DNA from: Gammaproteobacteria bacterium
Lineage (GTDB): Bacteria > Pseudomonadota > Gammaproteobacteria > Steroidobacterales > Steroidobacteraceae
DNA length: 64,000 nt
Reading direction: 5' to 3'
Assembly (NCBI GenBank): GCA_027459765.1
Contig: DAIDHD010000083.1
Span: 62,001-126,000 of the forward strand
A model generated the notes under the pieces. That model saw only the letters and a list, made by a program, of their open reading frames with translations. It was not told the origin of the DNA and made no database searches. Position numbers and translations under genes: made by a program. This document shows positions 89 through 32,724 of the stretch, in pieces (position 1 is the stretch's first letter; each line of letters opens with the position of its first letter).

Positions 89-436
89 CTACTTCGCAGT
101 GGCAGCCATCTTGTGATGCTCGGCCGCCAGCGCCCGACTCTCGGCCGCCGCCGCCTTCAAATCCTTGGTCAGCGCATCGCAGTGCCTGCTCTGCAGGGCA
201 ATGGCGGGCTTTCCCGCGGTGCGATAGGCATTCGCCATGGTGTGGTGCCAGTCCGCCTTCGCGTCGAGACCGGCGGCCTGATCATCGAACGCCTTGGCAA
301 TCGCCTCGTGATCGGCAGCGCTGCTTGCCGCAGTGATCTGCGCAGCGGTCACCGGGGGCGCAGTGCCCGCGAACGCGACGCTCATCAAACCGACGGCGAG
401 CACGAGGCTGCCGAGAAGTGCTGTGGAACGATTCAT
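89..436 (-). CDS. Small secreted protein of the cnrYXH-copper locus, copy 1 (115 aa, unknown function)
   Basis: This is a 115-aa protein with an N-terminal signal peptide (hydrophobic stretch about residues 6-22, likely cleavage after AFA), so it is probably periplasmic. The mature part is Ala-rich and helical, with repeated His (DHE, WHHTM, EHHKM) and one Cys (RHCDAL), which could bind metal. I do not recognise the family. It lies downstream of the sigma-factor gene on the same strand, and a close paralogue sits in the same place in copy 2 (30817-31164). The conserved position suggests it belongs to the sigma regulon or metal-sensing module. That role is inference. Confidence 0.75.
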   Translation of the reverse strand: MNRSTALLGSLVLAVGLMSVAFAGTAPPVTAAQITAASSAADHEAIAKAFDDQAAGLDAKADWHHTMANAYRTAGKPAIALQSRHCDALTKDLKAAAAESRALAAEHHKMAATAK

Positions 437-584
437 GTAAGTGCTCCTGATCGAAAAGTCTGAGTGTTCGCAGCGTTTTGTCCATCGCTACGGTTCAGCA
501 GGAGTACGTGCGCGAAGCGTCAATCACTCCGCCGATGCGCGGACCGGGGCTAAGGAAATATACGTAGATGACGCGAGTCGCGCG

Positions 585-1160
585 TCAGCTCTCCGCGTGC
601 TGCAGAAGCTCCAGCAGCTTCCTGCGTGCGCGATGGACGCGCAGCTCGACCGCCTTGGTCGTCAGTCCAAGCTGTGCTGCCGCATCGCGATGGCTCATGC
701 CCTGCAAGGCGGTCAGCACCAGAGGTTCCTTGAGCCGCGGCGGCAGTGTGGCGATGGCGCGATCAAGCGCAGCCAGGCGCACGTCGCTGCCATCGTGGGT
801 CTCGCGGTCGGTGTCGGGAAGTTCGACAGCAGCAGAATCAGGGTCGGAAAGTCCAAACCAATGCATGAGTTTTCGCCGAACGGCATGGCGACGCGAGACG
901 TCGCGGCACTTGTTGAGCAGGATGGTGCGGATCCAGGGGCCGAAGGCCTGGCTGGCATCGAAGCGTGATAGCGATAGCCAGGCCGCTACGAATGTGTCCT
1001 GGACGATATCGTAGGCGTCATCGCTCTGGCCAACATAGCGACGCGCGATGCGGTAAAGCGTTGCCTTATGCAGAGTGACGAGAGCCTCGAAAGCGGCGCG
1101 ATCACCGTTCCTTGCGGCGCTGGCAAGATGCGCATCGTCGTGCGCTTCGAAATCGCTCAC
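585..1160 (-). CDS. cnrH: ECF RNA polymerase sigma factor, CnrH-like
   Basis: This 191-aa ECF sigma factor has region 2 around residues 25-95 (SDDAYDIVQDTFVAAW) and region 4 around residues 130-185 (HRDAAAQLGLTTKAVELRVH helix-turn-helix). The length matches Cupriavidus CnrH. It starts with GTG, and the start overlaps the stop of the upstream cnrX-like gene by 4 bp (GTGA), so the two are translationally coupled. The order Y-X-H, with matching sizes of 94, 144 and 191 aa, is that of cnrYXH. By analogy it would be released by the anti-sigma CnrY-like protein on metal sensing. Here the adjacent divergent operon is copper-related rather than nickel/cobalt efflux. Confidence 0.9.
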   Translation of the reverse strand: MSDFEAHDDAHLASAARNGDRAAFEALVTLHKATLYRIARRYVGQSDDAYDIVQDTFVAAWLSLSRFDASQAFGPWIRTILLNKCRDVSRRHAVRRKLMHWFGLSDPDSAAVELPDTDRETHDGSDVRLAALDRAIATLPPRLKEPLVLTALQGMSHRDAAAQLGLTTKAVELRVHRARRKLLELLQHAES

Positions 1161-1591
1161 GGCGCATCCGCGTTGAGTACCCTGACGACGGAACGGTCGA
1201 AGATCGTGGCCTGTGCCGGGGTCAGCACCTCACGCATGCTGAGCACGTGTGCGGTTGTCGCTTCCTGCAGCTGCCGCATCGCCTGATGGAAGTGTCCGAT
1301 GGCCTGTTCGGCCGCAGGACTCATGCGGTGGTCGGTGACGATTGCCTGTGCCAGGTCGTGGTTGGCGAGGCGCATTTCCGCCTCCAACGCTTTGCGTTGG
1401 ACCGCGAAGGACGCCTCTAGTGCCTCGATCCTTGTCTCCTGCTCCTTGGACAGGGCAAGGTCGTGGTGAAGCACACGATCGAGGCCCAAGTTGCTGTCTG
1501 CTCCGCCCTGCCCGAGGCGAACCCCGAGCCATCCGCCCAGCACGGCGAGGAGAAAGGTGAGTGGGATCAGGCCAAGGGCCGCGCGTTTCAT
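1157..1591 (-). CDS. cnrX: Periplasmic metal sensor, CnrX-like
   Basis: This 144-aa protein has an N-terminal membrane anchor (about residues 4-25, LIPLTFLLAVLGGW) followed by a helical periplasmic domain of the CnrX/ZraP fold class. Candidate ligands are His-His near residue 44 (VLHHDLAL), Glu in the next helix, and a C-terminal HFHQAM element comparable to the His/Met ligands of CnrX. The ATG at 1591 was chosen because it gives a proper membrane anchor and overlaps the cnrY-like stop (ATGA). The longer ORF-track start lacks support. It probably binds the inducing metal and relays it to the anti-sigma factor. Metal specificity cannot be read from the sequence. Confidence 0.82.
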   Translation of the reverse strand: MKRAALGLIPLTFLLAVLGGWLGVRLGQGGADSNLGLDRVLHHDLALSKEQETRIEALEASFAVQRKALEAEMRLANHDLAQAIVTDHRMSPAAEQAIGHFHQAMRQLQEATTAHVLSMREVLTPAQATIFDRSVVRVLNADAP

Positions 1592-1872
1592 CGCGCGTCG
1601 CCGACCAGGAGTGTCGAGGCCGCGAGTCGGGTGTAGGGCGCCAGGGCGCTGGCAGACCCATGCACCTCGTGCGAGGCGGCCCACTGGTGCCCAAAGGCCA
1701 AACTGGAAACAGTTCCAATGGCCAGTATTGCGATCTGAGCAGCAAACGCACCGGCGTAAGTGCGACGCTCAGCCGTCCGGGCCTCGACGTCCCGCCATAT
1801 GGCCGACTCCAGTCCGGTCAGCGATCGGTCCAGGGGCGCCCTGGCCAGCCGATCCAGGTCATCTTCCAACAT
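1588..1872 (-). CDS. cnrY: Membrane anti-sigma factor, CnrY-like
   Basis: This 94-aa protein has a short cytoplasmic N-terminus (MLEDDLDRLARAPLDRSLTG), one transmembrane helix at about residues 44-65 (AQIAILAIGTVSSLAF) and a short periplasmic tail. Size, topology and first place in a Y-X-H operon match CnrY, which binds the sigma factor through its N-terminal helix. Sequence similarity to known CnrY is hard to judge by eye, so the call leans on gene order. The paralogue at 32316-32600 has the same length. It is the first gene of the leftward operon and faces the copper operon across a 119-bp gap. Confidence 0.75.
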   Translation of the reverse strand: MLEDDLDRLARAPLDRSLTGLESAIWRDVEARTAERRTYAGAFAAQIAILAIGTVSSLAFGHQWAASHEVHGSASALAPYTRLAASTLLVGDAR

Positions 1873-1902
1873 AAGAACAATCCTTTGCCGGTCAACTGGT
1901 CT

Positions 1903-1961
1903 AGGTACGCGCTGATTCTACCGCCCCCTCATCCGAGGGGTACGGGGTCCCGCCGCGTACC
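1903..1961. promoter_or_regulatory. Palindrome-rich divergent promoter region between cnrY and tolC, copy 1
   Basis: The gap holds CCCCTC-N4-GAGGGG (1925-1940), and GGTACG at 1939 facing CGTACC at 1956, with a further GGTACG at 1903. The same elements in the same order occur at 32631-32688 in copy 2 while nearby bases vary. They are likely recognition elements for the ECF sigma factor or an accessory regulator serving both directions. No -10/-35 consensus was assigned. Confidence 0.55.
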
Positions 1962-1991
1962 CACCCGGAAGTCATCGGAATCGGTGAGGAA

Positions 1992-3422
1992 ATGCCTTTT
2001 AGAAGTGCTATTGGATTGGCGGCGATCATGGCCACCCTGCTGTCCGGGTGCGCCACGCCTCGCGCGGCACAGATGATCCCCGAGGCGCGGAGTCTCTATG
2101 CGGCGCGCACGGCCCTGCCAACGTCCCCGACGGAGAGCCTCAAGGGCGCCAGCAACGGCTTGACCGGGCGGCTGAGGCGTCCAGTAGACGGCGACGCCGC
2201 GGTTCAGATCGCGCTTGTGAACAACCCCCGGGTTGCCGCCATCTACGCCCGCCTGGGATTTGCGGAGGCCGATCTCTACGATGCCGCGCGGCTCTCCAAT
2301 CCGGTCCTTGGGTACACGCGACTGACCAGCGGATCCGAAGCCAGCAAAGTCGACTGGAGCCTGTCACAAAATTTCACCGAGCTCCTGTTCCTTCGGTATC
2401 GACAGGCAGGCGCAGAGAGCCAGGCGCTGCTGGCCAAGCAGCAGGTCGCGCGCGAGCTGCTCGACCTCGAAGCCGAAGTCCGGGCGGCGGATGTGCGCTA
2501 TATCGGGAGCCGCACGAGTGCCGAAATGCGTGAGCGAGTTGCTCAGGCCACGCGAGTGTCGGCCACCTATGCGCAGCAGCTATTTGACGCCGGGAACATC
2601 AGCGCGCTGCAACTGGCCAGAATGCAGGAAGCCGCAACGTTAGCCGCCAATAGCGAACTGCGCGCCAACGCGATCGCGACGAGCGACCGCAATACGCTGC
2701 TCACCGTGATGGGACTGACCACTGATGCCAAGGTCGATCTCGTGGGTGAATATCCGTTACCAGTGAAGGTTGATCTCCAGGCGGCCGAACTCAGCACCTG
2801 GGCTGCTGGCAATAGGCTGGATCTCTTGAGTGCCCGGGAGGCGCTGCGGTTCGCAACCATTGCGCAATCGCACGCCCGACGCTGGCGATGGTTTGGCGAT
2901 ACCTCGATCGGCATCGCGCGAGAAAGAGATGGTGCGGTCGGTCCCGTGCCCGCCGAAACGCTGACGGGTCCCACCGCGAGCATCGCACTGCCGATCTTCA
3001 ATCAAGGTCGAGGCACCGTGAGCCGTGCGCAAGCTGCGGTTCAGCAACTGAACGCCAACGTGCGTTCACTCGAAGTGTCCATCGCCAACGAGGTACCGAG
3101 CCGTATTGCCGCTCTGGAGGCCGCACAACAGTCCGTGGCGCTGTACCGGGACCAAGTCCTCCCAACGCAGAAACGCATTGTCGAGGAGAGCCAGAAGCAG
3201 CAGAACTACATGTTGATCGGCACCTTCGAATTGCTTGCGGCGAAGCAACACCAGATTGAAGGATACGAGGCTTACATCGACGCGCTTCGGGATTACTGGC
3301 TTGCCCACGTCGACCTTCTGCGCGCCACAGGTGGTCGATTCCCGGGATGGGTGAGCGGCCCGGACGGTCAGGTCGCTGAGCCGCTGGTATTCAACGCGAC
3401 CGCCGCCGGAGATCGTCCATGA
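1992..3422 (+). CDS. TolC-family outer-membrane efflux lipoprotein, copy 1
   Basis: This 476-aa protein has a lipoprotein signal with lipobox LLSGC (Cys20), followed by outer membrane efflux protein repeats. The conserved element VDWSLSQNFTELLF lies near residue 117. The second repeat contains NRLDLLSAREALRF and a GRGTVSRAQAAV segment typical of the TolC coiled coil. It resembles CnrC/CzcC-like channels. It is the first gene of the rightward operon, and its stop overlaps the multicopper oxidase start (ATGA). No periplasmic adaptor or RND pump follows, so its partner pump must be elsewhere or it acts differently, for example in place of PcoB/CopB. Paralogues are at 32725 and 51439. Confidence 0.88.
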   Translation: MPFRSAIGLAAIMATLLSGCATPRAAQMIPEARSLYAARTALPTSPTESLKGASNGLTGRLRRPVDGDAAVQIALVNNPRVAAIYARLGFAEADLYDAARLSNPVLGYTRLTSGSEASKVDWSLSQNFTELLFLRYRQAGAESQALLAKQQVARELLDLEAEVRAADVRYIGSRTSAEMRERVAQATRVSATYAQQLFDAGNISALQLARMQEAATLAANSELRANAIATSDRNTLLTVMGLTTDAKVDLVGEYPLPVKVDLQAAELSTWAAGNRLDLLSAREALRFATIAQSHARRWRWFGDTSIGIARERDGAVGPVPAETLTGPTASIALPIFNQGRGTVSRAQAAVQQLNANVRSLEVSIANEVPSRIAALEAAQQSVALYRDQVLPTQKRIVEESQKQQNYMLIGTFELLAAKQHQIEGYEAYIDALRDYWLAHVDLLRATGGRFPGWVSGPDGQVAEPLVFNATAAGDRP

Positions 3423-4723
3423 CCGTGTCCCGTCGCTCGTTGATCACTGCAGCCGGGGCTGCTGCGCTGGGTGCGACTGTGCGCGCGGCATCGGCGCCTG
3501 CGATTCCCAATGTCACAAATGCGGGCCAGCCATCGCGCCACGCCCACCAGCGAGTGAAGACGCTGAATGGCTGGACACTGCCGTACAAACTGGTCGGGGG
3601 CGTCAAGGAATTTCACCTCGTCGCCGAAGAAGTCGATCACGAGTTCGCACCGGGGTGCAAGGCCAAGTGCTGGGGCTACAACGGTGGCACGCCGGGACCG
3701 ACCATCGAGGCCACGGAAGGCGAACGCGTGCGAATTCTCGTCACCAACCGATTGCCCGAGCCTACCTCGATTCATTGGCACGGCATCCTTCTGCCCTCAG
3801 GCATGGACGGTGTCAGCGGTCTCTCGCAGCCCTCGATCGGACCGGGCGAGACGTTTGCCTACGAGTTCACGCTACGTCAGCATGGTACCCACATGTACCA
3901 CCCGCACGCCGATGAGATGGTGCAGATAGCCGTCGGCATGATGGGACTGTTCGTCATTCACCCGGCGGCGGGCGAATCGGTCCCGATCGACCGAGATTTC
4001 GCCTTCCTGCTGCACAATTGGTCGCTGCATCCGGGCACGTTCCGGCCCGATCCCTCGATCATGCTGGATTTCGATCTGTGGACCTTCAACAGCAAGGTGT
4101 TCCCGGCGATCGAACCGCTTGTTGTGCGTGCCGGAGAGCGCGTGCGGATCCGGATCGGCAATGTGTCGATGTACAACCACCCCATTCATCTGCACGGTCA
4201 CGAGTTCGATGTCACGGGTGGTGATGGCGGCCGATGGTCGCGCGATCGTTGGCGCAAGGAGGTCACCGAGATCGTCGGGGTTGGGCAGATGCGCGATCTC
4301 GAGTTTGTCGCCGCGCCCGGGGACTGGGCGCTGCACTGTCACATGTCGCATCACACGATGAATGCGATGGGCCACGGAATACCCAATGTCCTCGGTGCGC
4401 GCATTGCGGATTCGGACGCCAACCTCGAGTCGCTTCTACCCGGCATGATGAACATGGGCGCCAACGGCATGTCAGAGCACCAGGCGCATGTCGAGGCAAT
4501 GAGCTTGCCCGGACCGGCCAATACGCTGCCGATGATGGGTGGCGAAGGTCCATATGGGGCATTGGAAATGGGTGGCATGTTCACAGTCGTCAAGGCCCGC
4601 CACGGTTTGACCGCGGATGACTTTCGCGACCCAGGCTGGTACGCGGCGCCGGAAGGAACGGTCGCCCGGATGATCAGCGAAGATCCGGATTTCGGGGCGC
4701 CGGTGCGGCGGCCCCGCTCGTGA
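3419..4723 (+). CDS. Tat-exported multicopper oxidase, copy 1
   Basis: This 434-aa protein has a twin-arginine signal (MTVSRRSLITAAGAAALGA). All four copper-binding motifs of multicopper oxidases are visible: IHWHG (~residue 119), HMYHPHADEM (~159), HPIHLHGHEF (~257) and HCHMSHHTMNAMGH (~304). Trinuclear and type-1 copper sites therefore look intact. A Met-rich C-terminal segment (GMMNMGANGM, MMGG) resembles copper-handling loops of CueO/CopA. It is shorter than the usual ~500-aa three-domain enzymes. It probably oxidises Cu(I) in the periplasm. It is coupled to tolC upstream and followed by copC and copD. Confidence 0.9.
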   Translation: MTVSRRSLITAAGAAALGATVRAASAPAIPNVTNAGQPSRHAHQRVKTLNGWTLPYKLVGGVKEFHLVAEEVDHEFAPGCKAKCWGYNGGTPGPTIEATEGERVRILVTNRLPEPTSIHWHGILLPSGMDGVSGLSQPSIGPGETFAYEFTLRQHGTHMYHPHADEMVQIAVGMMGLFVIHPAAGESVPIDRDFAFLLHNWSLHPGTFRPDPSIMLDFDLWTFNSKVFPAIEPLVVRAGERVRIRIGNVSMYNHPIHLHGHEFDVTGGDGGRWSRDRWRKEVTEIVGVGQMRDLEFVAAPGDWALHCHMSHHTMNAMGHGIPNVLGARIADSDANLESLLPGMMNMGANGMSEHQAHVEAMSLPGPANTLPMMGGEGPYGALEMGGMFTVVKARHGLTADDFRDPGWYAAPEGTVARMISEDPDFGAPVRRPRS

Positions 4724-4762
4724 TCAATGTCAGTACGCTAGCAATTTAATCAGGAGAAATCG

Positions 4763-5119
4763 ATGAAGACCTTTGTCCCGCTCACGGTGCTGCTGCTCGG
4801 ACTGGTGGTATCCGGGGTTGCGAGTGCGCACGCGCACCTGCATTCGTCGGTTCCCGCAAATCACAGTACCGTAGCCGCGGCGCCCAAGCAGATTGCACTT
4901 GAATTCAATGAACCTGTGCAATTGACCGCCTTGACCGTCCAGAAGGGAGATGGTCCGGCCACGAAACTCGGGCCCCTTGCTGACGCTCCTGCCAAGTCGT
5001 ACTCGCTTACTTTGCCGGCGCTCGAGGCCGGAAGCTACATCGTCAAGTGGCGAGCGGTCAGCGACGACGGGCACGTCATGGCGGACAAGGTGCTCTTCAC
5101 CGTCGGACCAGCCAAGTAA
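4763..5119 (+). CDS. copC: Periplasmic copper-binding protein CopC, copy 1
   Basis: This 118-aa protein has a signal peptide of about 23 residues ending in SAHA. The mature N-terminal His (HAHLHSS) and the C-terminal DDGHVM motif are the Cu(II)-binding His/Asp positions of the CopC beta-barrel family. The family partners with CopD in copper uptake or handling. An ideal ribosome binding site (AGGAGA) lies 7-8 bases before the ATG. A 39-base gap separates it from the multicopper oxidase and 48 bases from copD, all on one strand. Copies 2 (35497) and 3 (54233) have the same length. Confidence 0.92.
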   Translation: MKTFVPLTVLLLGLVVSGVASAHAHLHSSVPANHSTVAAAPKQIALEFNEPVQLTALTVQKGDGPATKLGPLADAPAKSYSLTLPALEAGSYIVKWRAVSDDGHVMADKVLFTVGPAK

Positions 5120-5167
5120 CCAACGAGTGGCGCATCTGCGCCGCCGGTCGCCTACGCAGGCAACACC

Positions 5168-6040
5168 GTGGATATCGACACGCTCGCAGTCCTCACCAAG
5201 GCGTTGGCCTATGGCGCGCTCTTGCTCGGCGCGGGCGGCGCATTGTTTCTCGCGCTGTTCGGGACTCGCCTGAACGCATCGACCGAGGCCGTTCGAAGCG
5301 CAGCGATGATGGCGAGCGGCGTCGGTGCGGTGGCGGTTCTGGTCTGCTATCTGCTGGAAGCGGGCCGAATGGCAGGCGAGATTGCCGGGGTGATGGACCA
5401 CGCGATGCAGCGTCGTCTCATCCACCTGCCGCTCGCCGCCGCCACGTCAGCGCGGCTCCTGGGTGCCACGCTGCTCATCGCGGGAATAGCACCGCGAGAC
5501 GGTGAGGCGAAGATACTCGCAGTGATCGGGGCCACGCTGGTCACTGCGTCCTTTCTGCTCGTGGGGCACTCTGTGACTCATGAGCCGCGCTGGCTCATTG
5601 TATTGCTCTTGGAAGTGCATTTGCTTGTGGCCGCCTTCTGGATCGGCTCGATTATTCCGCTGATCCTGGTGGCGCGGAGGGAAGCACCTGCGGTCGCGTA
5701 CCAGGTCGTGGAACGATTCTCGGCGCTGGCGGTTGTGCTGGTTCCGACGATGGCCGTTGCCGGACTGGTCATGGGCTGGATGTTGATCGGCGGGCACTAC
5801 TCCATTCGAGACGCCTATACAGCCTCACTGACTGGAAAGTTCGGGCTGCTAGTTTTGGCGCTGGGTCTTGCGGCACTGAATCGGGCGCGGCTGGGTCCGG
5901 CATTGGTTGCAGGGACGGACTCGGCAGTGCGGCGCTTCTCGCTAAGCCTGTCGATTGAGCTTTTCATTCTGCTCGGCGTCGTCGCACTGACGGCAACGTT
6001 GACGAGTCTGTTCTCTCCACCGATGGTAGGCATGTCATGA
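5168..6040 (+). CDS. copD: Copper resistance membrane protein CopD, copy 1
   Basis: This 290-aa integral membrane protein has about eight hydrophobic helices and conserved CopD elements (LLVGHSVTHEPRWLI, HLLVAAFWIGSIIPL with a His in the helix). It starts at GTG 5168. CopD proteins are inner-membrane partners of CopC, thought to move copper across the membrane. The stop overlaps the start of the following 148-aa gene (ATGA), showing translational coupling. Confidence 0.9.
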   Translation: MDIDTLAVLTKALAYGALLLGAGGALFLALFGTRLNASTEAVRSAAMMASGVGAVAVLVCYLLEAGRMAGEIAGVMDHAMQRRLIHLPLAAATSARLLGATLLIAGIAPRDGEAKILAVIGATLVTASFLLVGHSVTHEPRWLIVLLLEVHLLVAAFWIGSIIPLILVARREAPAVAYQVVERFSALAVVLVPTMAVAGLVMGWMLIGGHYSIRDAYTASLTGKFGLLVLALGLAALNRARLGPALVAGTDSAVRRFSLSLSIELFILLGVVALTATLTSLFSPPMVGMS

Positions 6041-6483
6041 ACCAGCCCCTGGATGGTGATCGTGAATCGCCTTCGCACCCTGCGCCGCGTCCGAAGCCGC
6101 CGGCGTTTGGGCAGGATTGCACCGTTGGCGATCGGCTGCGGCTCCGATGTCTGAGAAAGGCCATAGGCGAATACTTCTACGCGCGGCGGGGAGCTCGGCA
6201 ACTGATAGCTCTTCGGCGCCAGCTGTTGCAGAGTAGCCCCGGCTTGAGTCCGCGGGCCGTCATGGCGCGAGTCGCCATGTTGTGGTGCGGGGTTTCACAG
6301 CAGGAAGCAGATGTTCTCCTCCAGCGAGCACAGGAGTCCTTTGGCGAATGGCCGAGCCACCATGACATCACGTTCCGGAACTTCGCGGTCTACCTGCTCG
6401 TGACCAAGTACCTGCGAACCCGGTGTGCGACTGGCACGCAACTCGATTTGCAGCGCATCGTTGCGAAGTGGATCCCGACCTGA
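6037..6483 (+). CDS. Conserved 148-aa protein of the cnrYXH-copper locus, copy 1 (unknown function)
   Basis: This soluble, basic protein has no signal peptide or membrane segment. The visible conserved core, shared with the paralogue at 36772, includes FGxDCTVGD, LRCLRKAIGEYF, ESFGEWPSHH and YLRTRCATGT, with three conserved Cys. I do not recognise a domain. Overlap with copD (ATGA) implies co-expression in stoichiometric amounts. A cytoplasmic role next to CopD (copper acceptor, regulator) is possible but is inference. The gene is absent from the third copper operon. Confidence 0.75.
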   Translation: MNQPLDGDRESPSHPAPRPKPPAFGQDCTVGDRLRLRCLRKAIGEYFYARRGARQLIALRRQLLQSSPGLSPRAVMARVAMLWCGVSQQEADVLLQRAQESFGEWPSHHDITFRNFAVYLLVTKYLRTRCATGTQLDLQRIVAKWIPT

Positions 6484-6598: not shown

Positions 6599-6715
6599 TG
6601 CCAAATCTACTGCCAAATCCGGGGGTCCGGGGGGATTGGAGGGGACAAAAATACGAAGGAATTCCGTAAGTTATTGATTTCTAGAATGCGTCTTCGAATC
6701 CCTCTCTCTCCGCCA
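6599..6715. repeat. att-like direct repeat 1: island right arm plus tRNA-Ser 3' end
   Basis: The repeat begins with a tandem TGCCAAATC-type arm motif, then GGGGGTC and a GAATTCnGTAAGTTATTGATT block, and ends with TTCGAATCCCTCTCTCTCCGCCA. That end matches a tRNA-Ser T-arm/acceptor 3' half with encoded CCA. No 5' tRNA half is present, so this is an att fragment and not a functional tRNA. Sister copies lie at 45056-45175 and 48121-48245. Confidence 0.85.
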
Positions 6716-8531: not shown

Positions 8532-10340
8532 TCAGGTGGAGGCGACTACCCGTGGTGCTACGGTCGCCGCACTATTCGTAATAGCGGCTGGGTGGACGAG
8601 CTCCAGCAGCCGGTCAACGCCGACCGGTTCGCTCATTAGCAGCGGTACGAGCGCGTACCGGCTCGCGTGACGAGTTGCGACGGCATCGATTTCCGAGAGC
8701 TCATTGCGCGCACGCTGGCGCAGCAGGGCGGACTTCGGGTTCGCCGCTGCGACCGAATTGTTGATGATCCAGGCCCACGGTTCGATCCCCGCGCGCCGCA
8801 GGTCTGCCTGCAGTCCCGCGGCCTCCAACACGGGGGTCGTCTCTGCGAGAGAGACCAGCAGGACCTTGGTGCGTTTCGGGTCCTGCAACTGCATCATGGG
8901 TGTCACGAAGTGCGCGTGGTTCCGGCTCATCTGCCGGGCGACTTCACGGTGGTACGCGCCGGCGGCATCGAGCAGCAGCAGGGTGTGGCCCGTCGGAGCC
9001 GTATCCATGACGACGAACTTCGAGCTCGCCTCGCGAATGACGCGCGAGAACGCACCGAATACCGCGATCTCCTCGGTGCATGGAGAGCGCAGATCCTCTT
9101 CCAATAGTGCCCGTCCCGCGGCGTCGAGCTCAGCGCCCTTGGCGGCCAGCACCTGCTGCCGGTACCGCTCCGTCTCGACGTGCGGGTCGATGCGGCTCAC
9201 GGTCTGGTGTTCGAGCGTGCCGCTGAGGGTATCTTCCAGATGCGCGGCCGGGTCCGAGGTTGTGAGGTGAACGGTCAGTCCGCGGTGGGCCAGCTCGACT
9301 GCGACGGCGGCCGCGAGGGTGGTCTTTCCGACGCCGCCTTTGCCCATCAGCATGACGAGACCGTGGCCCTCGGCCGCAATGCCATCGATGAGCGCCGACA
9401 ACGGGGCAGGGGCCGGCGCCTGGAATACGTTCTCGTCCATGGCCCCGGATGTGGTGTCGACTGTGAGCAGGTGTCGCAGCGCATCAAAACCAACGAGGTT
9501 GAAGCCCTTCAGTGGAATCACGTCCTGCGGCAGCGCTCGAAGGGCTGTCGGGACGGCGGCAAGGGCGGCCTGCTCGCGGTCCCAGATCGCGGCGGCCAAG
9601 GGATCGCCAGCCGTCTCCGCGCGGGGCAGGACGCCGTTGATGACCAGAAAATGCTGCGACAGCCCGATGTCAGCGAGTTCCGTGTGGGTGCGGGCGGCCT
9701 CCCTCAGCGTGGCCAACTGGGGACGTGCGACCAGGACCAGGCGGGTGCGCGCCGGGTCGGCGAGCGCGTCGACCGCCGATTTGTATTGCTCGCGCTGCTT
9801 TTCAAGCCCGGCGAGCGGACCCAGGCACGACGCGTCGCCCTTTCCGGCCTCCAGAAACCCGGTCCAGGCGCCCGGCAATTGCAGCAACCGGATCGTGTGC
9901 CCGGTGGGGGCGGTGTCGAAGATTACGTGATCGTACCCGGCCGTCAGTTCGCCGTCCGTGAGCAGCGCCGTGAACTCATCGAACGCCGCGATCTCCGTCG
10001 TGCAGGCACCCGAGAGTTGCTCCTCGATACCCTTGACCACGCTGTCCGGCAGGACGCCTCGGACGGGGCCGACAATCCGGTCCCGGTAGGCCTGCGCGGC
10101 GGCCTGGGGGTCGATTTCCAGCGTCCACAGTCGCTCCACCGCCGGAATGGCGGTGACCCGATTGCCGATGGTCACACCAAAGACCTGGCCCACATTGGAG
10201 GCGGGATCGGTACTGACGAGCAGAACCCGGCGCCCGGCCGCTGCAAGGTGAATGGAGGTTGCGCAGGCAATGGAGGTCTTCCCGACACCGCCCTTGCCGG
10301 TAAAGAACAGGAACCGCGGCGGTTGGTCGAGGAACCTCAC
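8532..10340 (-). CDS. arsA: Arsenite-stimulated ATPase ArsA
   Basis: This 602-aa protein is made of two homologous ATPase halves, each with a deviant Walker A (GKGGVGKT, about residues 15-22 and 333-340) and a DTAPTGHT motif. Cys112 (GACTTE), Cys172 (SCLGPL) and a C-terminal-half Cys (SPCTEE) match the three As(III)-binding cysteines of ArsA. The GTG at 10340 was chosen because VRFLDQPPRFLFF aligns with the family start and lies 10 bases after arsD. The ORF-track extension is unlikely. It energises arsenite export by the membrane pump, with ArsD as chaperone. It is the last gene of the ars operon. Confidence 0.93.
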   Translation of the reverse strand: MRFLDQPPRFLFFTGKGGVGKTSIACATSIHLAAAGRRVLLVSTDPASNVGQVFGVTIGNRVTAIPAVERLWTLEIDPQAAAQAYRDRIVGPVRGVLPDSVVKGIEEQLSGACTTEIAAFDEFTALLTDGELTAGYDHVIFDTAPTGHTIRLLQLPGAWTGFLEAGKGDASCLGPLAGLEKQREQYKSAVDALADPARTRLVLVARPQLATLREAARTHTELADIGLSQHFLVINGVLPRAETAGDPLAAAIWDREQAALAAVPTALRALPQDVIPLKGFNLVGFDALRHLLTVDTTSGAMDENVFQAPAPAPLSALIDGIAAEGHGLVMLMGKGGVGKTTLAAAVAVELAHRGLTVHLTTSDPAAHLEDTLSGTLEHQTVSRIDPHVETERYRQQVLAAKGAELDAAGRALLEEDLRSPCTEEIAVFGAFSRVIREASSKFVVMDTAPTGHTLLLLDAAGAYHREVARQMSRNHAHFVTPMMQLQDPKRTKVLLVSLAETTPVLEAAGLQADLRRAGIEPWAWIINNSVAAANPKSALLRQRARNELSEIDAVATRHASRYALVPLLMSEPVGVDRLLELVHPAAITNSAATVAPRVVAST

Positions 10341-10350
10341 GCGCCTTGGC

Positions 10351-10710
10351 TCAGCAGCGACCGCCGCCACAGCAACCGGATGCCTTCTTCGGCACCTCCG
10401 CCGGCGCAGCAATCCCCGCCCAGCGTCCGAGCTCCGTGCGGTTCGGGTAGCGGCCGGCGAGTGCGACCTGCCCATCCACGAGGATCAAGGGCAGAGCCTC
10501 TTCGCCCGAGCGCTCGAGGAAGGCCTTCACCGGCGGCATCTGGGCGAAGACGAGTGGCTGCTGGGCCAGGTTGAAGCGCTCAATCGTGGCGCCCTGCTCC
10601 TTCGCCCAGGCGGCGTCCGCGGAAAAGTTGACGAGCGCCTGGTCGACGTCGGTGCCGCATACACCTGTGCTGCAGCACAGGGCCGGATCAAACACTTGGA
10701 TGGTGGTCAT
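10351..10710 (-). CDS. arsD: Arsenic metallochaperone ArsD
   Basis: This 119-aa protein contains the ArsD cysteine triad Cys12-Cys13-Cys18 (CCSTGVCG) used to pass As(III) to ArsA, and an additional C-terminal CCGGGRC cluster. It lies between arsC and arsA in the same orientation, as in arsRDABC-type operons. The 101-base gap to arsC could hold a secondary signal, but none is evident. Confidence 0.92.
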   Translation of the reverse strand: MTTIQVFDPALCCSTGVCGTDVDQALVNFSADAAWAKEQGATIERFNLAQQPLVFAQMPPVKAFLERSGEEALPLILVDGQVALAGRYPNRTELGRWAGIAAPAEVPKKASGCCGGGRC

Positions 10711-10811
10711 CTGGCATCTCCTAATCGAATTCGTTGGCCTCGGCCGTCGCCGATGAGGCCTGCCTCGACCCTACTCGCGAGCGCAAGCCGCGGCCATCCG
10801 TGGAACTCAGC

Positions 10812-11243
10812 TCAGCGCACGCGTTCGCCATGGGCGGCAATCACGACTTCGCCGCCTTCCTTCGCAAACGGCGCCTTCTGCGGCACCGGCAGAATATCCA
10901 GCACCGCCTCGGAAGGCCGGCACAGCTTCACGCCCCAGGGGGTCACGACAATCGGGCGGTTGATCAGGATCGGGTGCGCGAGCATGCAGTCGATCAGCTG
11001 CGCGTCGGTCCAGTGAGTAGCGCCAAGATCTAGTTCCGCGAACGGCGTTCCCTTCTCGCGCAGCAGGGCGCGTGCCGGGATACTCATCCGGGCAATCAGG
11101 GATTCCAGCGTGGATCGGTCCGGCGGGGTCTTCAGATACTCGATCACTGTCGGCTCGATGCCCGCATTGCGGATCAGCGCCAGCGTGTTGCGGGACGTTC
11201 CGCAAGCCGGGTTGTGATAGATCGTGACTGAAGGGCCGCTCAC
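10812..11243 (-). CDS. arsC: Arsenate reductase, glutaredoxin-dependent ArsC
   Basis: This 143-aa ArsC/Spx-fold protein has the catalytic Cys in TIYHNPACGTSRN (residue ~12) and the downstream RPIVVTPWGVKLCRPSE element carrying the conserved Arg residues. It reduces As(V) to As(III) with glutathione/glutaredoxin. The GTG at 11243 overlaps the acr3 stop (GTGA), which favours it over the longer ORF-track start. It is the third arsenate reductase of the operon and mechanistically distinct from the two phosphatase-like ones upstream. Confidence 0.92.
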   Translation of the reverse strand: MSGPSVTIYHNPACGTSRNTLALIRNAGIEPTVIEYLKTPPDRSTLESLIARMSIPARALLREKGTPFAELDLGATHWTDAQLIDCMLAHPILINRPIVVTPWGVKLCRPSEAVLDILPVPQKAPFAKEGGEVVIAAHGERVR

Positions 11244-12340
11244 GAGGGCCTCCCGCCGGTGCCCGATCCCTGCATGCCAAGCTCGTACCAACCCTTGCTG
11301 CGGTTCACGATCCGGACGACCAGCAGCATGACCGGCACTTCAATGAGTACGCCCACGACCGTGGCGAGTGCCGCGCCGGACTCGAATCCGAACAGGCTGA
11401 TCGCGGCAGCGACGGCCAGCTCGAAGAAATTGCTCGCGCCAATCAAGGCGGACGGGCAGGCGACGCTGTGGGATTCGCCGAGGCGTCGGTTGAGCCAGTA
11501 CGCGAGTGCCGAGTTGAAGAACACCTGAATGAGGATCGGCACCGCGAGCATCGCGATGATCAGGGGCTGCTTGATGATGGCCTCGCCCTGGAAAGCGAAC
11601 AGAAGGACCAGCGTCGCGAGCAGCGCCGTGATCGACCACGGCCCGATTGCAGACAAAGCGCGGTCAAAACCCGCCTGCCCGCCTTGAGCCAGCAGCGCTT
11701 TGCGCAGCAGCTGCGCGATTACTACCGGGATCACGAGGTAAAGCAGCACAGACGTGAGCAGCGTGTCCCACGGGACAGTGATCGACGAGAGTCCGAGGAG
11801 GAGCGCCACGATCGGCGCGAACGCGAACACCATGATCGTGTCGTTGAGCGCGACCTGGGTGAGCGTGAAGAGCGGATGCCCGTTCGTGAGCCGGCTCCAC
11901 ACGAACACCATGGCGGTGCAGGGCGCTGCGGCCAGCAGGATGAGACCTGCGATGTAGCTATCAAGCTGGTCGGCCGGCAGGTATCCGGCGAACACATGCC
12001 GGACGAAGATCCAGCCCAGCAAGGCCATCGAGAACGGCTTGACCGCCCAGTTCACGAACAGCGTGACGCCGATGCCGCGCCAATGCTGCTTGACCTGATG
12101 CAGGGCGCCGAAATCGATCTTCAGCAGCATCGGAATGATCATCACCCAGATCAGGAGGCCCACTGGGATATTGACCTTCGCGATCTCCATATGGCCGATC
12201 GCATGGAACGGTCCCGGCAGCCACTGGCCAAGGCCAATGCCGACGATGATGCAGAGAAATACCCACACGGTCAGGTAGCGCTCGAAGACGCTCATGGGGG
12301 CAGGAGCCGCAAGGGGAGCGGCGAGGGTGGTGGTGTTCAT
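11240..12340 (-). CDS. acr3: Arsenite efflux permease ACR3
   Basis: This 366-aa membrane protein has about ten helices. The family signature around LAAAPCTAMVFVWSRLTNG contains the Cys essential for arsenite transport, and LNDTIMVFAFAP follows. It extrudes As(III) across the inner membrane, with ArsA/ArsD possibly coupling ATP hydrolysis. It is translationally coupled to the following arsC and lies 3 bases after the upstream reductase gene. Confidence 0.94.
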   Translation of the reverse strand: MNTTTLAAPLAAPAPMSVFERYLTVWVFLCIIVGIGLGQWLPGPFHAIGHMEIAKVNIPVGLLIWVMIIPMLLKIDFGALHQVKQHWRGIGVTLFVNWAVKPFSMALLGWIFVRHVFAGYLPADQLDSYIAGLILLAAAPCTAMVFVWSRLTNGHPLFTLTQVALNDTIMVFAFAPIVALLLGLSSITVPWDTLLTSVLLYLVIPVVIAQLLRKALLAQGGQAGFDRALSAIGPWSITALLATLVLLFAFQGEAIIKQPLIIAMLAVPILIQVFFNSALAYWLNRRLGESHSVACPSALIGASNFFELAVAAAISLFGFESGAALATVVGVLIEVPVMLLVVRIVNRSKGWYELGMQGSGTGGRPS

Positions 12341-12343
12341 CGG

Positions 12344-12850
12344 TCAGCTCTTGCCTATCTCGGTGAGCGCGGCGTTCAGCGCTTGCGGGGTCATGGAGTC
12401 GAGCGGCAGCGCGAGCAGTTGCAGCATGCGGTAGCCGATGGCCTGGCGGGTCAGCTCGAACGCCCGCCGTTTGCCGGCATCGCCGCCCTCGGCGTTGGAC
12501 GGATCGGGGTAGCCCCAATGCACCTTGACGGGCTGCTTCCCGGGGCCGCCAAAGAACACGGGACAGGTTTCGGCCGCGGCGCTGTCGCACACCGTGATGA
12601 CGATCGACAGGGGAGGCGCCCCGTCACCCCTGAACTCGTCCCAGCTCTTGCTGCGGTAGGCGTGGGTGTCGATGCCGGCGCTCTGCAATGCTTCAATCGC
12701 GAAGGCGTTGATACGCCCGCTCGGGGCGCTGCCGGCGCTGTGGGCCTGGACATCCTTACCGAGCTTGCGGGCGAGGTGGTTGAGCATCCCTTCGCTGAGA
12801 ACGCTTCGGGCCGAGTTATGGGTGCATAGGATCAAGGCATGGGTCGTCAT
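12344..12850 (-). CDS. arsC: Arsenate reductase, low-molecular-weight phosphatase type (second)
   Basis: This 168-aa LMW-PTP-fold protein has the P-loop CTHNSARS (Cys10) and the conserved YRSKSWDEF and VITVCDSAAAETCPVF stretches, with the additional Cys residues of the arsenate-reducing subgroup. It would reduce As(V) using thioredoxin or a related thiol. It follows a paralogue (12854-13348) by 3 bases. Confidence 0.9.
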   Translation of the reverse strand: MTTHALILCTHNSARSVLSEGMLNHLARKLGKDVQAHSAGSAPSGRINAFAIEALQSAGIDTHAYRSKSWDEFRGDGAPPLSIVITVCDSAAAETCPVFFGGPGKQPVKVHWGYPDPSNAEGGDAGKRRAFELTRQAIGYRMLQLLALPLDSMTPQALNAALTEIGKS

Positions 12851-12853
12851 GGT

Positions 12854-13348
12854 TCAGCGGGTTCCGATATCGCGTACTTCGCGCTGGATCGCCATGCGAT
12901 CCAGGCTCGTCAGAGGCAGGGCAAGGAAGAGTTGAATGCGGCGACGCATGTGAACCATCGTTTCGAGAAATGCCGACTCCTGCGCGAACGCGTTACCTTG
13001 GACCGCTGCAGGATCCGGCATGCCCCAGTGCGCGGTGATGGGCTGCCCTGGCCATGCCGGGCACACTTCACCGGCGGCCTTGTCGCAGACGGTAAAGACG
13101 AAGTCGAACCCAGGACTGTTTGGCTGCCCGAACTCATCCCAGCTCTTGCTGCGGAAGCCCGAGACGTCGATGTCGTTCTTGCCGAGCACATGGAGGGCGA
13201 GGGGATGCACTTCGCCCTTCGGGTGGCTACCAGCGGAGTAGGCCTTGAAGCGCCCTTTGCCGAGCTGGTTCATCAGGCCTTCGGCGATGATCGATCGCGC
13301 GGAATTTCCCGTGCAGATGAACAGCACGTTGTACATCTTCCCGTCCAT
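12854..13348 (-). CDS. arsC: Arsenate reductase, low-molecular-weight phosphatase type (first)
   Basis: This 164-aa protein begins MDGKMYNVLFICTGNSARS with P-loop CTGNSARS, and continues with FRSKSWDEF and FTVCDKAAGEVCPAWPG. The ATG at 13348 was chosen over the 276-aa ORF because the upstream residues are low-complexity and overlap arsI. It is related to, but clearly diverged from, the next gene, so this is not a fresh tandem duplication. Confidence 0.9.
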   Translation of the reverse strand: MDGKMYNVLFICTGNSARSIIAEGLMNQLGKGRFKAYSAGSHPKGEVHPLALHVLGKNDIDVSGFRSKSWDEFGQPNSPGFDFVFTVCDKAAGEVCPAWPGQPITAHWGMPDPAAVQGNAFAQESAFLETMVHMRRRIQLFLALPLTSLDRMAIQREVRDIGTR

Positions 13349-13355
13349 GGTGACC

Positions 13356-13880
13356 TCAGCAGCAGGAGGAGCCGGCGGTATTGACGGGAATCCCGATCGG
13401 CTTGCCGCGTGAGGCGGGCGTGCAGCACCGCCCTTGCTCGGTCGGCGCTTTCGGGGCGGACTCGGCGGGCGAGCAGCAGGGGCTGGCCGCCGTGGCAACT
13501 TGGGATTCGCTGAAGGTCGGGATATTCCCAAGGGTGTGGAACTGCTCCCACGCGATGCCCTGCGGGTCGGTGACCCAGTACTTTTCGCTGCGGGCGTAGC
13601 AGCAGGTCGTCTCGCCTTCATCGAGCAGTGCCATGTCCGCGGATTCGGCACGCGCCTTGAGGACCGCGAGTTCCTGCGGATCATCCGTCTGGAAACCCAG
13701 ATGGTCGATGCCTGGCTGGGCGGCGCGCGTGGAGATCGCGAAGTTCAGGCGCGGATCCTCCAGCATCCACTTGGCGTAGTCGCTCTCGACGCGGACCGGA
13801 TCGGCGGCGAACAGCTTTGAATAGAAGCCGATGCTCTTGTCGAGGTCGGCAACGTGCAGGTGAACATGGAATCGTTTCAC
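13356..13880 (-). CDS. arsI: ArsI/CadI-type glyoxalase-fold protein (probable C-As lyase)
   Basis: This 174-aa vicinal-oxygen-chelate protein has His residues in FHVHLHV, His60 (IDHLGF) and Glu112 (WEQFH) as likely Fe(II) ligands. The adjacent Cys93-Cys94 (TTCCYARS) is the organoarsenical-binding pair of ArsI, which cleaves the carbon-arsenic bond of trivalent organoarsenicals. The C-terminal tail is Cys-rich (SPCCSP, RCCTP, SSCC). It is the second gene of the ars operon, directly after arsR. Confidence 0.85.
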   Translation of the reverse strand: MKRFHVHLHVADLDKSIGFYSKLFAADPVRVESDYAKWMLEDPRLNFAISTRAAQPGIDHLGFQTDDPQELAVLKARAESADMALLDEGETTCCYARSEKYWVTDPQGIAWEQFHTLGNIPTFSESQVATAASPCCSPAESAPKAPTEQGRCCTPASRGKPIGIPVNTAGSSCC

Positions 13881-13894
13881 GGCGATGGCTCCAA

Positions 13895-14221
13895 TTAGCA
13901 GGTAGCCCGGCGTTTCCGGACGGACGGTATGCAGGCCTGACCCTGGCAGCAGTGATCGGTGAGGTAGCCGAGCAGCGCATTCATATGCGCGAGGGCGGGT
14001 CGGTAATGCAGGTTCCGGCCCTGCCGCTCGACGGTGATGAGATCCGCATGAACCAACTCCTTTAGGTGAAAGGAGAGGGTCGTTGCCGGGATGTCGAGGG
14101 CGGCGGCGAGGGCGCTGGGAGTCATGCCGGTGGGCCCGGCGCCCACGAGCGTGCGAAAGACTCTCAGGCGCGCTTCCTGTGCGAGGGCGGCCAGGGCGGA
14201 GACGGCAGCATTCTCATTCAT
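13895..14221 (-). CDS. arsR: ArsR-family repressor of the ars operon
   Basis: This 108-aa winged-helix regulator has the DNA-reading helix in IPATTLSFHLKELVHADL. Cysteines sit near the C-terminus (HCCQGQAC, ATC) rather than in the classic ELCVCDL site, so it belongs to a group with a C-terminal As(III)-binding site. It is the first gene of a leftward eight-gene operon (arsR-arsI-arsC-arsC-acr3-arsC-arsD-arsA), and its start codon lies in its own operator. Confidence 0.9.
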   Translation of the reverse strand: MNENAAVSALAALAQEARLRVFRTLVGAGPTGMTPSALAAALDIPATTLSFHLKELVHADLITVERQGRNLHYRPALAHMNALLGYLTDHCCQGQACIPSVRKRRATC

Positions 14222-17040: not shown

Positions 17041-19191
17041 TTACGGCGAACGGGCGTCGGACGGATCCGGCGCAGCGCGCAGCAAGCGCAGTCCGTTGGC
17101 CACCACCAGGAGGCTCGCACCCATGTCGGCAAAGACGGCCATCCACATCGTTGCCCCGGCAAACAGTGCGAGGCCCAGGAACACCGCTTTGACACCGAGA
17201 GCCAGGGTGATGTTCTGGACGAGCACCGCCTGGGTGCGTCTGGACAGGCGAATGAGCTCAGGGATGCGGCGCAGGTCGTCGTTCATCACGACGACGTCCG
17301 CGGCCTCGACGGCGGCGTCGGTACCGGCGGCCCCCATGGCAATGCCGATGTCGGCGCGTACGAGCGCCGGTGCGTCGTTGATGCCATCTCCAACCATAGC
17401 GACCACACCGCTTTGCGCCTTGAGGTCACCAATGGCCTGGAGCTTGTCGGCGGGCAGCAGGCTCCCGCGCGCCTCATCCACGCCGGCTTCATGCGCGATG
17501 CTGTCGGCCGTGCGCTGGTTGTCTCCGGTCAGCATGACCGTGCGGATACCAAGGTCGTGCAGGGCGACGATTGCTTCGCGCGAGCTGGGCTTGATCGCGT
17601 CGGCCACCGCAAAGAGGCCAAGCACGGACTGAGTGGTGGCCAGCAGCGTGGTGGTGCGCCCCCGCTCCTCGTGTGCACGGAGTTTGGATTCCAGCGCATC
17701 GCTGCACAGGTTCATCTCCTCGATCAGCCGGTGATTGCCGAGCACGAGCGCCTGTTCGCCGACCGTGCCTTCGATGCCGCGGCCGGGCAGTGCTCTGAAG
17801 TTGGCGACCGGTTGCGGGCCGCCCGCGAGGCCGCTCGCGATGGCGCGCGCGACCGGATGGTCGGACCGAGCCGCAAGGCTCGCCGCGTCGCGCGCGACGT
17901 CCTTGGGCGCTCCGTTCAGGACCTCGACATCTAGCAATCTCGGCTTACCCTCGGTGAGGGTACCCGTCTTGTCGAGTGCGACGACGCGGATGCGCCGGGC
18001 GGATTCCAGGTACGCACCGCCCTTGATGAGAATGCCGCGTCGAGCGGCGCTGGCTAAGGCGCTCACGACGGCGACCGGCGTCGAGATGACGAGCGCACAA
18101 GGGCAGCCGATGACGAGCAATACCAGTGCCTTGTAGAGCGACTGCATCCAGGTCCAGCCGAGCAGCCATGGACACAGCACGGCAACCGCGAGAGCCACCA
18201 GTAGGACGGCGGGCGTGTACAGGGCGGCGAACCTGTCGACGAAGCGTTGGGTCGGAGCGCGCGAGCCCTGGGCCGATTCCACGGCCTGGATGATTCGCGC
18301 CAGGGTGGTGTTGCCAGCGGTCGCCGTGACCTGGAATTCCAGTTCGCCGGTCTGGTTGATGGTGCCCGCGAATACCGGATCGCCAGCGGCCTTGTCGACG
18401 GGGATGCTCTCGCCGGTGACGGGCGCCTGGTTCACGGCACTCGTGCCCTGGGTGATGAGGCCATCGAGCGCGATGCGTGCACCGGGGCGTACCCGCACGG
18501 TGGCTCCGATCGTCACGGCGGTGGCAAGCAGCTCCGCCCAGGTTCCATCGGGCTGGCGGACCTCGGCCCGCTGCGGGGCCAGGTCGAGCAGGCCGCGAAT
18601 GGCGTTGCGCGCCCGATCGAGCGATCGCGCCTCGATCAGTTCCGCGATCGCGTACAGCGCCATCACCATCGCGGCCTCCGGCCACTGACCGATGAGGAAG
18701 GCGCCGGTCACGGCCACGCTCATCAGGGCGTTGATCGTCGGCCGGGCATGGCGTAGCGCTGATATCCCCTTGCGATAAGTCTCAAACCCCGCGAGTACAA
18801 TCGCAGTGGCCGCTAGCGCCATGACCACAACCCGAGTAGGCAGTGCATTGCCGGCTAGAAGTGAGGCCAATTCCGCCGCGGCAGCGAGAACCAGCGCGAC
18901 GACCGGGCGGACCAGTGCAGAACCGCCGAGCGTTCCGGGCGCGTGTTCGGTCGCTGGCTGGCTTTCAGCGGGCTGTGGATCGAAGCCCGCAGCCCGAATG
19001 GCGGATGCCACGGCGGCCATGTCGGCGGCGGGCGCCGTGACAGTAAGGGTCCGTGCGGCCAACTGGAATCGCAGGCTCTCGATGCCGTGCATGCCCTCCA
19101 GCGCATGGCGGATCTCGGCCTCTTCCGAGGCGCAATCCATGTTCGCGATGCGAAACGTGGTAACCGTCGGTTGAGTCGACGCGACGCTCAC
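17041..19191 (-). CDS. cadA: Cd/Zn/Pb-exporting P1B-type ATPase
   Basis: This 716-aa pump has an N-terminal HMA domain with MDCASEE (Cys20, CxxEE type seen in divalent Zn/Cd/Pb pumps), the transport motif CPC in VIGCPCALV, phosphorylation site [13 protein letters not shown] and GDGINDAPAL. The CPC motif together with the acidic HMA motif supports Zn(II)/Cd(II)/Pb(II) rather than Cu(I). It lies 12 bases after czcA and is probably the last gene of czcCBA-cadA. Confidence 0.92.
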   Translation of the reverse strand: MSVASTQPTVTTFRIANMDCASEEAEIRHALEGMHGIESLRFQLAARTLTVTAPAADMAAVASAIRAAGFDPQPAESQPATEHAPGTLGGSALVRPVVALVLAAAAELASLLAGNALPTRVVVMALAATAIVLAGFETYRKGISALRHARPTINALMSVAVTGAFLIGQWPEAAMVMALYAIAELIEARSLDRARNAIRGLLDLAPQRAEVRQPDGTWAELLATAVTIGATVRVRPGARIALDGLITQGTSAVNQAPVTGESIPVDKAAGDPVFAGTINQTGELEFQVTATAGNTTLARIIQAVESAQGSRAPTQRFVDRFAALYTPAVLLVALAVAVLCPWLLGWTWMQSLYKALVLLVIGCPCALVISTPVAVVSALASAARRGILIKGGAYLESARRIRVVALDKTGTLTEGKPRLLDVEVLNGAPKDVARDAASLAARSDHPVARAIASGLAGGPQPVANFRALPGRGIEGTVGEQALVLGNHRLIEEMNLCSDALESKLRAHEERGRTTTLLATTQSVLGLFAVADAIKPSSREAIVALHDLGIRTVMLTGDNQRTADSIAHEAGVDEARGSLLPADKLQAIGDLKAQSGVVAMVGDGINDAPALVRADIGIAMGAAGTDAAVEAADVVVMNDDLRRIPELIRLSRRTQAVLVQNITLALGVKAVFLGLALFAGATMWMAVFADMGASLLVVANGLRLLRAAPDPSDARSP

Positions 19192-19203
19192 AACCGGATT
19201 TCT

Positions 19204-23320
<4,117 letters not shown>

Positions 23321-23324
<4 letters not shown>

Positions 23325-24694: not shown

Positions 24695-24722
24695 GGCCTT
24701 GAATTCGCTCGCAAATTGGCAG

Positions 24723-24753
24723 AATGTAAAGCCTGTAGTCACTACAGGGTCAA
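24723..24753 (-). promoter_or_regulatory. MerR-type promoter/operator of czcCBA-cadA
   Basis: On the leftward strand, TTGACC and TACATT are separated by 19 bp that include the near-perfect dyad CCTGTAGTGACTACAGG. The adjacent divergent gene at 24757 encodes a MerR-family activator, which should bind here. The same dyad occurs before the Met-rich cytochrome gene. Confidence 0.88.
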
Positions 24754-30202: not shown

Positions 30203-30667
30203 CTAAGGTTTCGGTGCCGTAGCCTTCGGCACCGTGGGGTGAGAGTGTTCCGACGCGGCGTCAGGCGCGCCGGACATCATGTTCTCCTTCATCGATTCAC
30301 GATCCATCATCATCTGCATCATCATGGTCATCATCTGCATGTGCTGATGCATCGCGTCCTGCGACATGCCAGTCTGCGCGTGGCCATGGTCCATGTGTTG
30401 CATCGCGGTCATGCCTTCCTGCATGGCCTGCATGTGTTCGGCCATCAGTGCGTTACGCTCGGCGGACGTCTTCGCCGCCATCATCTTCTCGTGCATGCGC
30501 TGCATGTGCTGCATCGCGGAAACCGAGTCCGCGGCCGGGGCAGGCGTCGCGGCGCCCGAGTGTTCGTGGTCATGGGCGGCCGGTTCCTCCGCTTGTACGG
30601 CGGCGATGGAAAGCGGGCCGAGAAGGGCTGCGGAGGCAATGATCAGGGCGCGGGTCGTGCGGTTCAT
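30203..30667 (-). CDS. Met/His-rich periplasmic protein
   Basis: This 154-aa protein has a signal peptide (cleavage after AAVQA), then a His-rich stretch (HDHEHSG) and extended Met/Gln/His-rich helices (MQHMQRMHEKM, MQMMTMMMQMMM). It probably binds Cu(I)/Ag(I) through Met thioethers. ATG 30667 follows GAGG at good spacing and was preferred over ATG 30682. It is the first gene of a leftward five-gene operon. No MerR-type promoter is visible before it. Confidence 0.82.
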   Translation of the reverse strand: MNRTTRALIIASAALLGPLSIAAVQAEEPAAHDHEHSGAATPAPAADSVSAMQHMQRMHEKMMAAKTSAERNALMAEHMQAMQEGMTAMQHMDHGHAQTGMSQDAMHQHMQMMTMMMQMMMDRESMKENMMSGAPDAASEHSHPTVPKATAPKP

Positions 30668-30816
30668 TGTCGTGATCCTCATGGCGTACGTAATGGGTTG
30701 CTGACGGATGCAGTACGCGGGAGCAGGGCGTCCCCCTCTCGCGGAGTTTGGCGTCCACGACCACGGGCCACCTCGCCATGCGTCGATGAAGCGCCGAACT
30801 CCCCTTGCCACGGTGG

Positions 30817-32600: not shown

Positions 32601-32630
32601 AAGAAATTCCCTTTGCCGGTCTATCGGATA

Positions 32631-32688: not shown

Positions 32689-32724
32689 CTCCCGGAAGTC
32701 ATCGGAATCGGTGAGGAAAGGGCT

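Follow-up and report, generated by a model that had tools for sequence, protein, structure and literature searches.

CnrYXH is the model metal-sensing anti-sigma complex, known for nickel and cobalt; in Cupriavidus metallidurans, where it is encoded on plasmid pMOL28, its targets are the CnrCBA-CnrT nickel/cobalt efflux genes. Copper operons of the copABCD and pcoABCD type are governed by the two-component systems CopRS and PcoRS and encode the three-domain CopA together with CopB, while plasmids of Burkholderia and Caballeronia carry operons for TolC, copper oxidase, copper-binding protein, CopC, and CopD, next to a divergent heavy-metal two-component system without YXH. Extracytoplasmic function (ECF) sigma factors have also been linked to copper. 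CorE of Myxococcus xanthus, which controls copper genes including a multicopper oxidase, detects copper through a Cys-rich C-terminus of its own and lacks an anti-sigma (PMC3107203, as described in PMC10141476), whereas the copper-responsive SigAb of Acinetobacter works with AabA and AabB, its small membrane anti-sigma having been modelled like CnrY on CnrH (PMC12153292). Here, we describe a Y-X-H switch that lies back to back with a copper operon in a gammaproteobacterium of the Steroidobacteraceae, within a stretch of 64,000 nucleotides (contig DAIDHD010000083.1, positions 62,001 to 126,000; hereafter the window). This switch very probably belongs to the CnrYXH family of ECF sigma factor systems, as a member linked to copper. 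The locus (module 1, or copy 1) is made up as follows.

585-1160, minus strand: H, CnrH-like ECF sigma factor, 191 aa (Pfam Sigma70_r2/r4; best solved structure CnrH)
1157-1591, minus strand: X, CnrX-like membrane-anchored periplasmic metal sensor, 144 aa (Pfam Metal_resist, E 1.7e-16; profile; fold)
1588-1872, minus strand: Y, candidate CnrY-like single-pass anti-sigma, 94 aa (position, size, hydrophobic segment, C-terminal motif)
1992-3422, plus strand: TolC-type outer-membrane lipoprotein (OMF), 476 aa (Pfam OEP, E 1.1e-18; lipobox LSGC)
3419-4723, plus strand: two-domain multicopper oxidase (MCO), 434 aa, with a Tat-like N-terminus (Pfam Cu-oxidase_3 and Cu-oxidase_2)
4763-5119, plus strand: CopC (Pfam CopC, E 2e-23)
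5168-6040, plus strand: CopD (Pfam CopD, E 1.4e-14)
6037-6483, plus strand: 148-aa protein without a known family (36772-37218 holds a copy of 69% identity)
89-436, minus strand: 115-aa secreted helical protein of no known family, downstream of H (75% identical copy in module 2, 30817-31164)

Open reading frames and Pfam agree with an earlier note on this DNA in setting Y-X-H back to back with the operon of tolC-type OMF, MCO, copC, copD, and 148-aa protein. The note had also ascribed to the switch the exact sizes and couplings of cnrYXH. The couplings stand, X overlapping Y and H by 4 nt each, but the sizes are not exact (94, 144, and 191 aa versus 95, 148, and 191 aa for CnrY, CnrX, and CnrH of pMOL28). 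The span that it gave to the whole system, 1157-6483, begins at X and omits the sigma gene at 585-1160, and the translational fusion of OMF to MCO that it described is a pair of separate genes whose stop and start overlap by 4 nt as ATGA. Its central claim, the wiring of a CnrYXH-type switch to a copper operon, is supported by an H nearest to CnrH, an X of the CnrX/NccX kind, and a promoter motif common to both sides and present 5' of copper genes elsewhere.

Likeness to cnrYXH and nccYXH extends over gene order, overlaps, sizes, CnrH and CnrX homology, the fold of X, most metal-ligand positions, and the type of promoter 5' of Y and of the target operon. Unlike in cnrYXH, the targets are genes for copper oxidation and binding, the target operon is divergent, position 42 of X is Asp instead of His, and Y is too diverged for Pfam CnrY; the operon content of copy 1 includes no adjacent CnrCBA-type resistance-nodulation-division (RND) efflux genes or CnrT as a target. 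The output shares a multicopper oxidase, CopC, and CopD with copABCD/pcoABCD, but a sigma switch takes the place of the two-component system, and a two-domain oxidase with a TolC-type OMF that of three-domain CopA with CopB. The MCO carries the copper motifs HWHG, HMYHPH, HPIHLHGH, and HCHxxxHxxxxM, read from its sequence, and scores 188 bits against TIGR01480 copper_res_A (cut-off 479), outside the three-domain CopA class. In type of output, it is the Burkholderia/Caballeronia operons that come close, their MCO being ~57-59% identical. H ends in LLELLQHAES and lacks a Cys-rich C-terminal extension of the CorE type, and the arrangement also departs from that of SigAb, in which the order is sigma-AabA-AabB and the sigma factor acts directly on sigAb, relA, and an sRNA, reaching copper genes only indirectly (PMC12153292).

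Among solved structures, the best relative of H is CnrH (4cxf, E 3.5e-28, 39% identity), followed at E 6.9e-18 by the next best. A search with a profile of the X family from which CnrX was excluded recovers NccX and CnrX with E values from 1.5e-29 to 8e-24, and when X as modelled by AlphaFold2 from its single sequence (pLDDT 76) was compared with solved structures, all 15 best fold matches were CnrX or NccX, including CnrX crystallised with copper (3EPV). Y shares one hydrophobic segment and a C-terminal LAxSTLLxG with its relatives and is CnrY-like in size and position; it is the weakest link of the CnrYXH assignment, which it appears to fit by these features.

Module 1 is repeated collinearly in the window (89-6477 versus 30816-37211, 76% DNA identity), and the second copy, the first, and the nearest relative, a gammaproteobacterial metagenome-assembled genome (locus L015), all have a divergent pair of putative promoters between Y and OMF. 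The motif, GAGGG-N15-GCGTA, came from aligning the Y-OMF gaps of these three with the regions 5' of Y and copA on sphingomonad plasmids; it was spotted by eye on a subset of loci and then counted on all, loci L135-L154 being fetched after its definition. The putative sigma-H sites of the two modules are as follows.

1906-1930, minus strand: promoter of Y-X-H in module 1, GAGGGGGCGGTAGAATCAGCGCGTA (exact motif, kept in copy 2 and L015)
1935-1959, plus strand: promoter of the OMF operon in module 1, GAGGGGTACGGGGTCCCGCCGCGTA (exact motif; top position weight matrix score in the window)
32633-32657, minus strand, and 32662-32686, plus strand: divergent pair of module 2

Across 497 kb of loci with the switch, 73 exact sites have a spacer of 15 and 7 a spacer of 16, with 0-2 at each other spacer from 8 to 25; control MCO loci without the switch (1,348 kb) hold a single exact site at spacer 15, and while the two sets differ in taxonomy, the spacer preference and the positions of the sites are independent of that comparison. 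Sites fall before first genes: an exact one is found 5' of Y in 20/27 cases (26/27 with a relaxed motif), of copA in 17/23, of copC in 14/20, and of OMF in 3/4, the exception being a third copy in the window that has no switch. None lies 5' of the inner genes copB (0/23), copD (0/18), and MCO (0/6). With a looser pattern, the window has 8 matches against 0.48 expected, a number reached in 0/100 shuffles, and five of the ten exact matches in the whole genome are in this island. These five are also the top five of the window under a position weight matrix trained without it; since the null of this matrix is broad (mean maximum 12.5, largest 17.7), the weaker of them would not stand out by score alone.

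The corresponding sites on pMOL28 are AAGGG-N16-CCGTA 5' of cnrY and GAGGG-N16-CCGTA 5' of cnrC, so that cnrYXH has spacer 16 and CCGTA where the present loci have spacer 15 and GCGTA. Their placement agrees with the start sites of cnrY and cnrC, which have been mapped 24 and 25 nt upstream (PMC9045368). Taken together, the sites strongly imply that RNA polymerase with H reads GAGGG-N15-GCGTA. A weak promoter-like site near the gene of the 115-aa protein (505-529, minus strand; matching place in module 2, 31234-31258, minus strand) makes this protein a possible member of the sigma-H regulon. In sphingomonad loci L011, L012, L014, L135, and L138, the same promoter lies 5' of genes for copper P-type ATPases or TonB receptors, hinting at a larger copper regulon.

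The pairing of switch and copper genes is not confined to this genome. Relatives of X occur in 71 plasmid records, mostly of sphingomonads, and in all six plasmid loci inspected, a small protein, X, and the sigma factor stand beside copper genes, with copA-copB directly next in five; in a Caulobacter plasmid locus, a P-type ATPase and CueR are found by the switch in place of copA-copB. In a phylum sample, X was found in 17 of 399 genomes, and 18 of the 20 X loci fetched adjoin copA-copB and/or copC-copD, the other two being cnr/ncc-like. Neighbours in this survey were identified solely with BLAST, which may overlook distant ones; by the same means, no CnrT-like exporter was seen beside the copper-linked loci. 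Uniqueness of the layout is rejected: L015 shows the same divergent switch and OMF-MCO, and the switch adjoins copper genes in many genomes. A sample of the class gave X only in this genome plus one weak match, and the switch was thus probably acquired in this lineage. The copper link is broader than the earlier note stated, being present in many alphaproteobacteria with classical copA-copB. Because promoter and pairing with copper genes are common to many bacteria, this is probably a widespread copper switch. The literature covered, which takes in only a minority of subscription journals and not two central papers on ECF factors, gave no description of a CnrYXH-type switch on copper genes; the genes themselves are already known, being annotated as 'periplasmic heavy metal sensor' and 'sigma factor' on plasmids, and what is apparently new is the wiring.

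The output operon is not in itself unusual. We compared 80 MCO relatives with flanks of up to ~10 kb, 77 of which are testable in that the contig reaches far enough upstream. OMF is directly upstream of MCO in all 77, with overlapping open frames in 65; a two-component system is near in 8/77, and an RND permease is in the flanks of 20/77. The switch accompanies OMF-MCO in one of the 80, L015, where a CusA-type pump comes after the divergent H-X-Y and OMF-MCO. As the earlier note stated, neither an RND permease nor an adaptor belongs to the output operon of copy 1 (OMF, MCO, CopC, CopD, and the 148-aa protein), but this is not the special part for which it was taken: most relatives have the OMF-MCO pair without a pump of its own, and copy 2 is followed by CusCBA. 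We found no published account of a two-domain copper oxidase/TolC-type pair without its own pump. For the 148-aa protein, Pfam gave no family and NCBIfam a sub-threshold match only, and BLAST gave no relatives in the 80 MCO loci; it was seen solely in the two modules of this genome (6037-6483 and 36772-37218). The remaining copies and associated features of the window are listed here.

30817-37218: module 2, whole (115-aa protein gene, H-X-Y/OMF-MCO-copC-copD-148 aa)
31313-32600, minus strand: second Y-X-H set (H2 31313-31888, X2 31885-32316, Y2 32316-32600), 78/88/81% identical to the first
32677-37218, plus strand: second OMF-MCO-copC-copD-148 aa operon
37862-43601, plus strand: CusCBA-type RND pump after module 2, with its own OMF at 37862-39163 (CusA/CzcA family, 1321 bits; CusB family)
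51412-55504, plus strand: third OMF-MCO-copC-copD, without Y-X-H and without promoter
30203-30682, minus strand: Met/His-rich periplasmic protein of 159 aa with 27 Met and 13 His (exact putative sigma-H promoter at 30714-30738, minus strand)

The three MCO copies have identities of 100, 90, and 79%.

We propose that at rest, Y would span the inner membrane and hold H. A periplasmic metal ion filling the site of X would change the X-Y complex and free H, which, with RNA polymerase, would amplify its own Y-X-H operon and turn on the divergent OMF-MCO-CopC-CopD operon, as well as the Met/His-rich periplasmic protein. From what is known of the families, MCO would then oxidise periplasmic Cu(I) to Cu(II), CopC would bind copper, CopD would handle it at the inner membrane, and OMF would offer a route over the outer membrane, either by itself or together with CusBA of the adjacent pump. 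In sphingomonads and their relatives, the same switch and promoter would control copA-copB and copC-copD.

As to the metal sensed, it is the target genes that point to copper. The nickel/cobalt ligands of CnrX are H42, H46, E63, H119, and M123. X of copy 1 has D42, H46, E63, H119, and M123, keeping 4/5. Among 30 aligned X proteins, a set that includes CnrX and two cnr/ncc-like members, 26 retain all five positions; of the other four, both window copies and that of L015 carry Asp at 42, and the last has Asp and Ile. Copper as the inducer, which we consider likely, is deduced from the target genes only. Several observations weigh against the proposal. Y scores 16.6 bits (E 0.0099) where the curated cut-off of Pfam CnrY is 25, and no tie of OMF to a pump was found in this analysis. 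Most copper-linked X proteins keep all five CnrX nickel/cobalt positions, and the ligands of X, for that reason, do not announce copper. Finally, in Sphingobium sp. ba1, copA, copB, and copC are induced by 10 mM nickel, a role of their products in nickel adaptation being, according to the authors, previously unreported (PMC5557971); should the ba1 genes have this switch, their induction would be in keeping with one that responds to nickel.

Among the alternatives, the one that survives best concerns the output alone and is compatible with a copper switch: OMF may act only within a CusCBA-type pump in trans, the operon being an RND accessory rather than a duct in its own right. The CusA-type pumps that follow module 2 and L015 speak for it, but CusCBA brings its own OMF (37862-39163) and 57 of the 77 testable OMF-MCO loci have no RND permease in their flanks, which makes it somewhat unlikely. 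We regard as less likely still that the switch, like CnrX, senses nickel or cobalt, or else a number of divalent metals, and activates copper genes in a general alarm response to metal. Beyond the retained ligand set HHEHM and the nickel response of ba1, this idea draws on a promoter closely resembling that of cnr; it is opposed by the copper-gene targets of 18/20 fetched loci, by the lack of a CnrT-like exporter alongside in the BLAST survey, and by the change of H42 to Asp in the window copies. That switch and copper operon are mere neighbours on a mobile element, with CueR, CopRS, or else a housekeeping promoter driving the OMF operon, is highly improbable, for although 79/80 OMF-MCO relatives lack the switch, those on Burkholderia and Caballeronia plasmids lie beside a two-component system, and copy 3 has neither switch nor promoter, both modules and L015 have the divergent promoter pair in common, and the same motif lies 5' of copA and copC far from this lineage.

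Returning to the copper switch, a broader and tentative suggestion, to which we give limited credence, is that, judged by their numbers, switches of the CnrYXH type constitute a copper system of which the cnr/ncc nickel/cobalt versions studied so far are an offshoot, the same five-ligand periplasmic site being tuned to copper by outer-shell or Y-X differences. In the sigma tree, which is unrooted and leaves out six X loci, CnrH is placed among copper-linked rows at a weak fork (89/83). If relatives of CnrYXH do mostly run copper genes, a copper regulon with a readable promoter can be predicted for sphingomonads and related bacteria, the regulation of copAB and copCD where CopRS does not adjoin would be explained, and the question of how a single metal site discriminates between copper and nickel could be addressed directly.

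The window is a region of metal resistance. A tRNA-3'-end-like repeat occurs at 6693-6715, 45153-45175, and 48223-48245, and also at C83:44158-44180; ARAGORN found no tRNA in the window. As three of these four repeats adjoin integrase-like genes, modules 1 and 2 are probably on two neighbouring integrative elements, and the repeats are probably those of an array of such elements with metal resistance. A recent duplication of copies 1 and 2 is rejected, as their 76% DNA identity and the two repeat-bordered elements suggest separate arrivals. In the part of the module 1 element that was read to the left of the window, where genes were assigned by eye, no RND permease was recognised, and a P-type ATPase of the copper type was noted along with a Met-rich protein. 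Between the modules are arsenic resistance genes (8532-14221; ArsA, ArsD, ArsC, Acr3-like, and a regulator, named by eye) and, at 17041-24742, a Zn/Cd-type P-type ATPase adjoining a CzcCBA-type RND pump.

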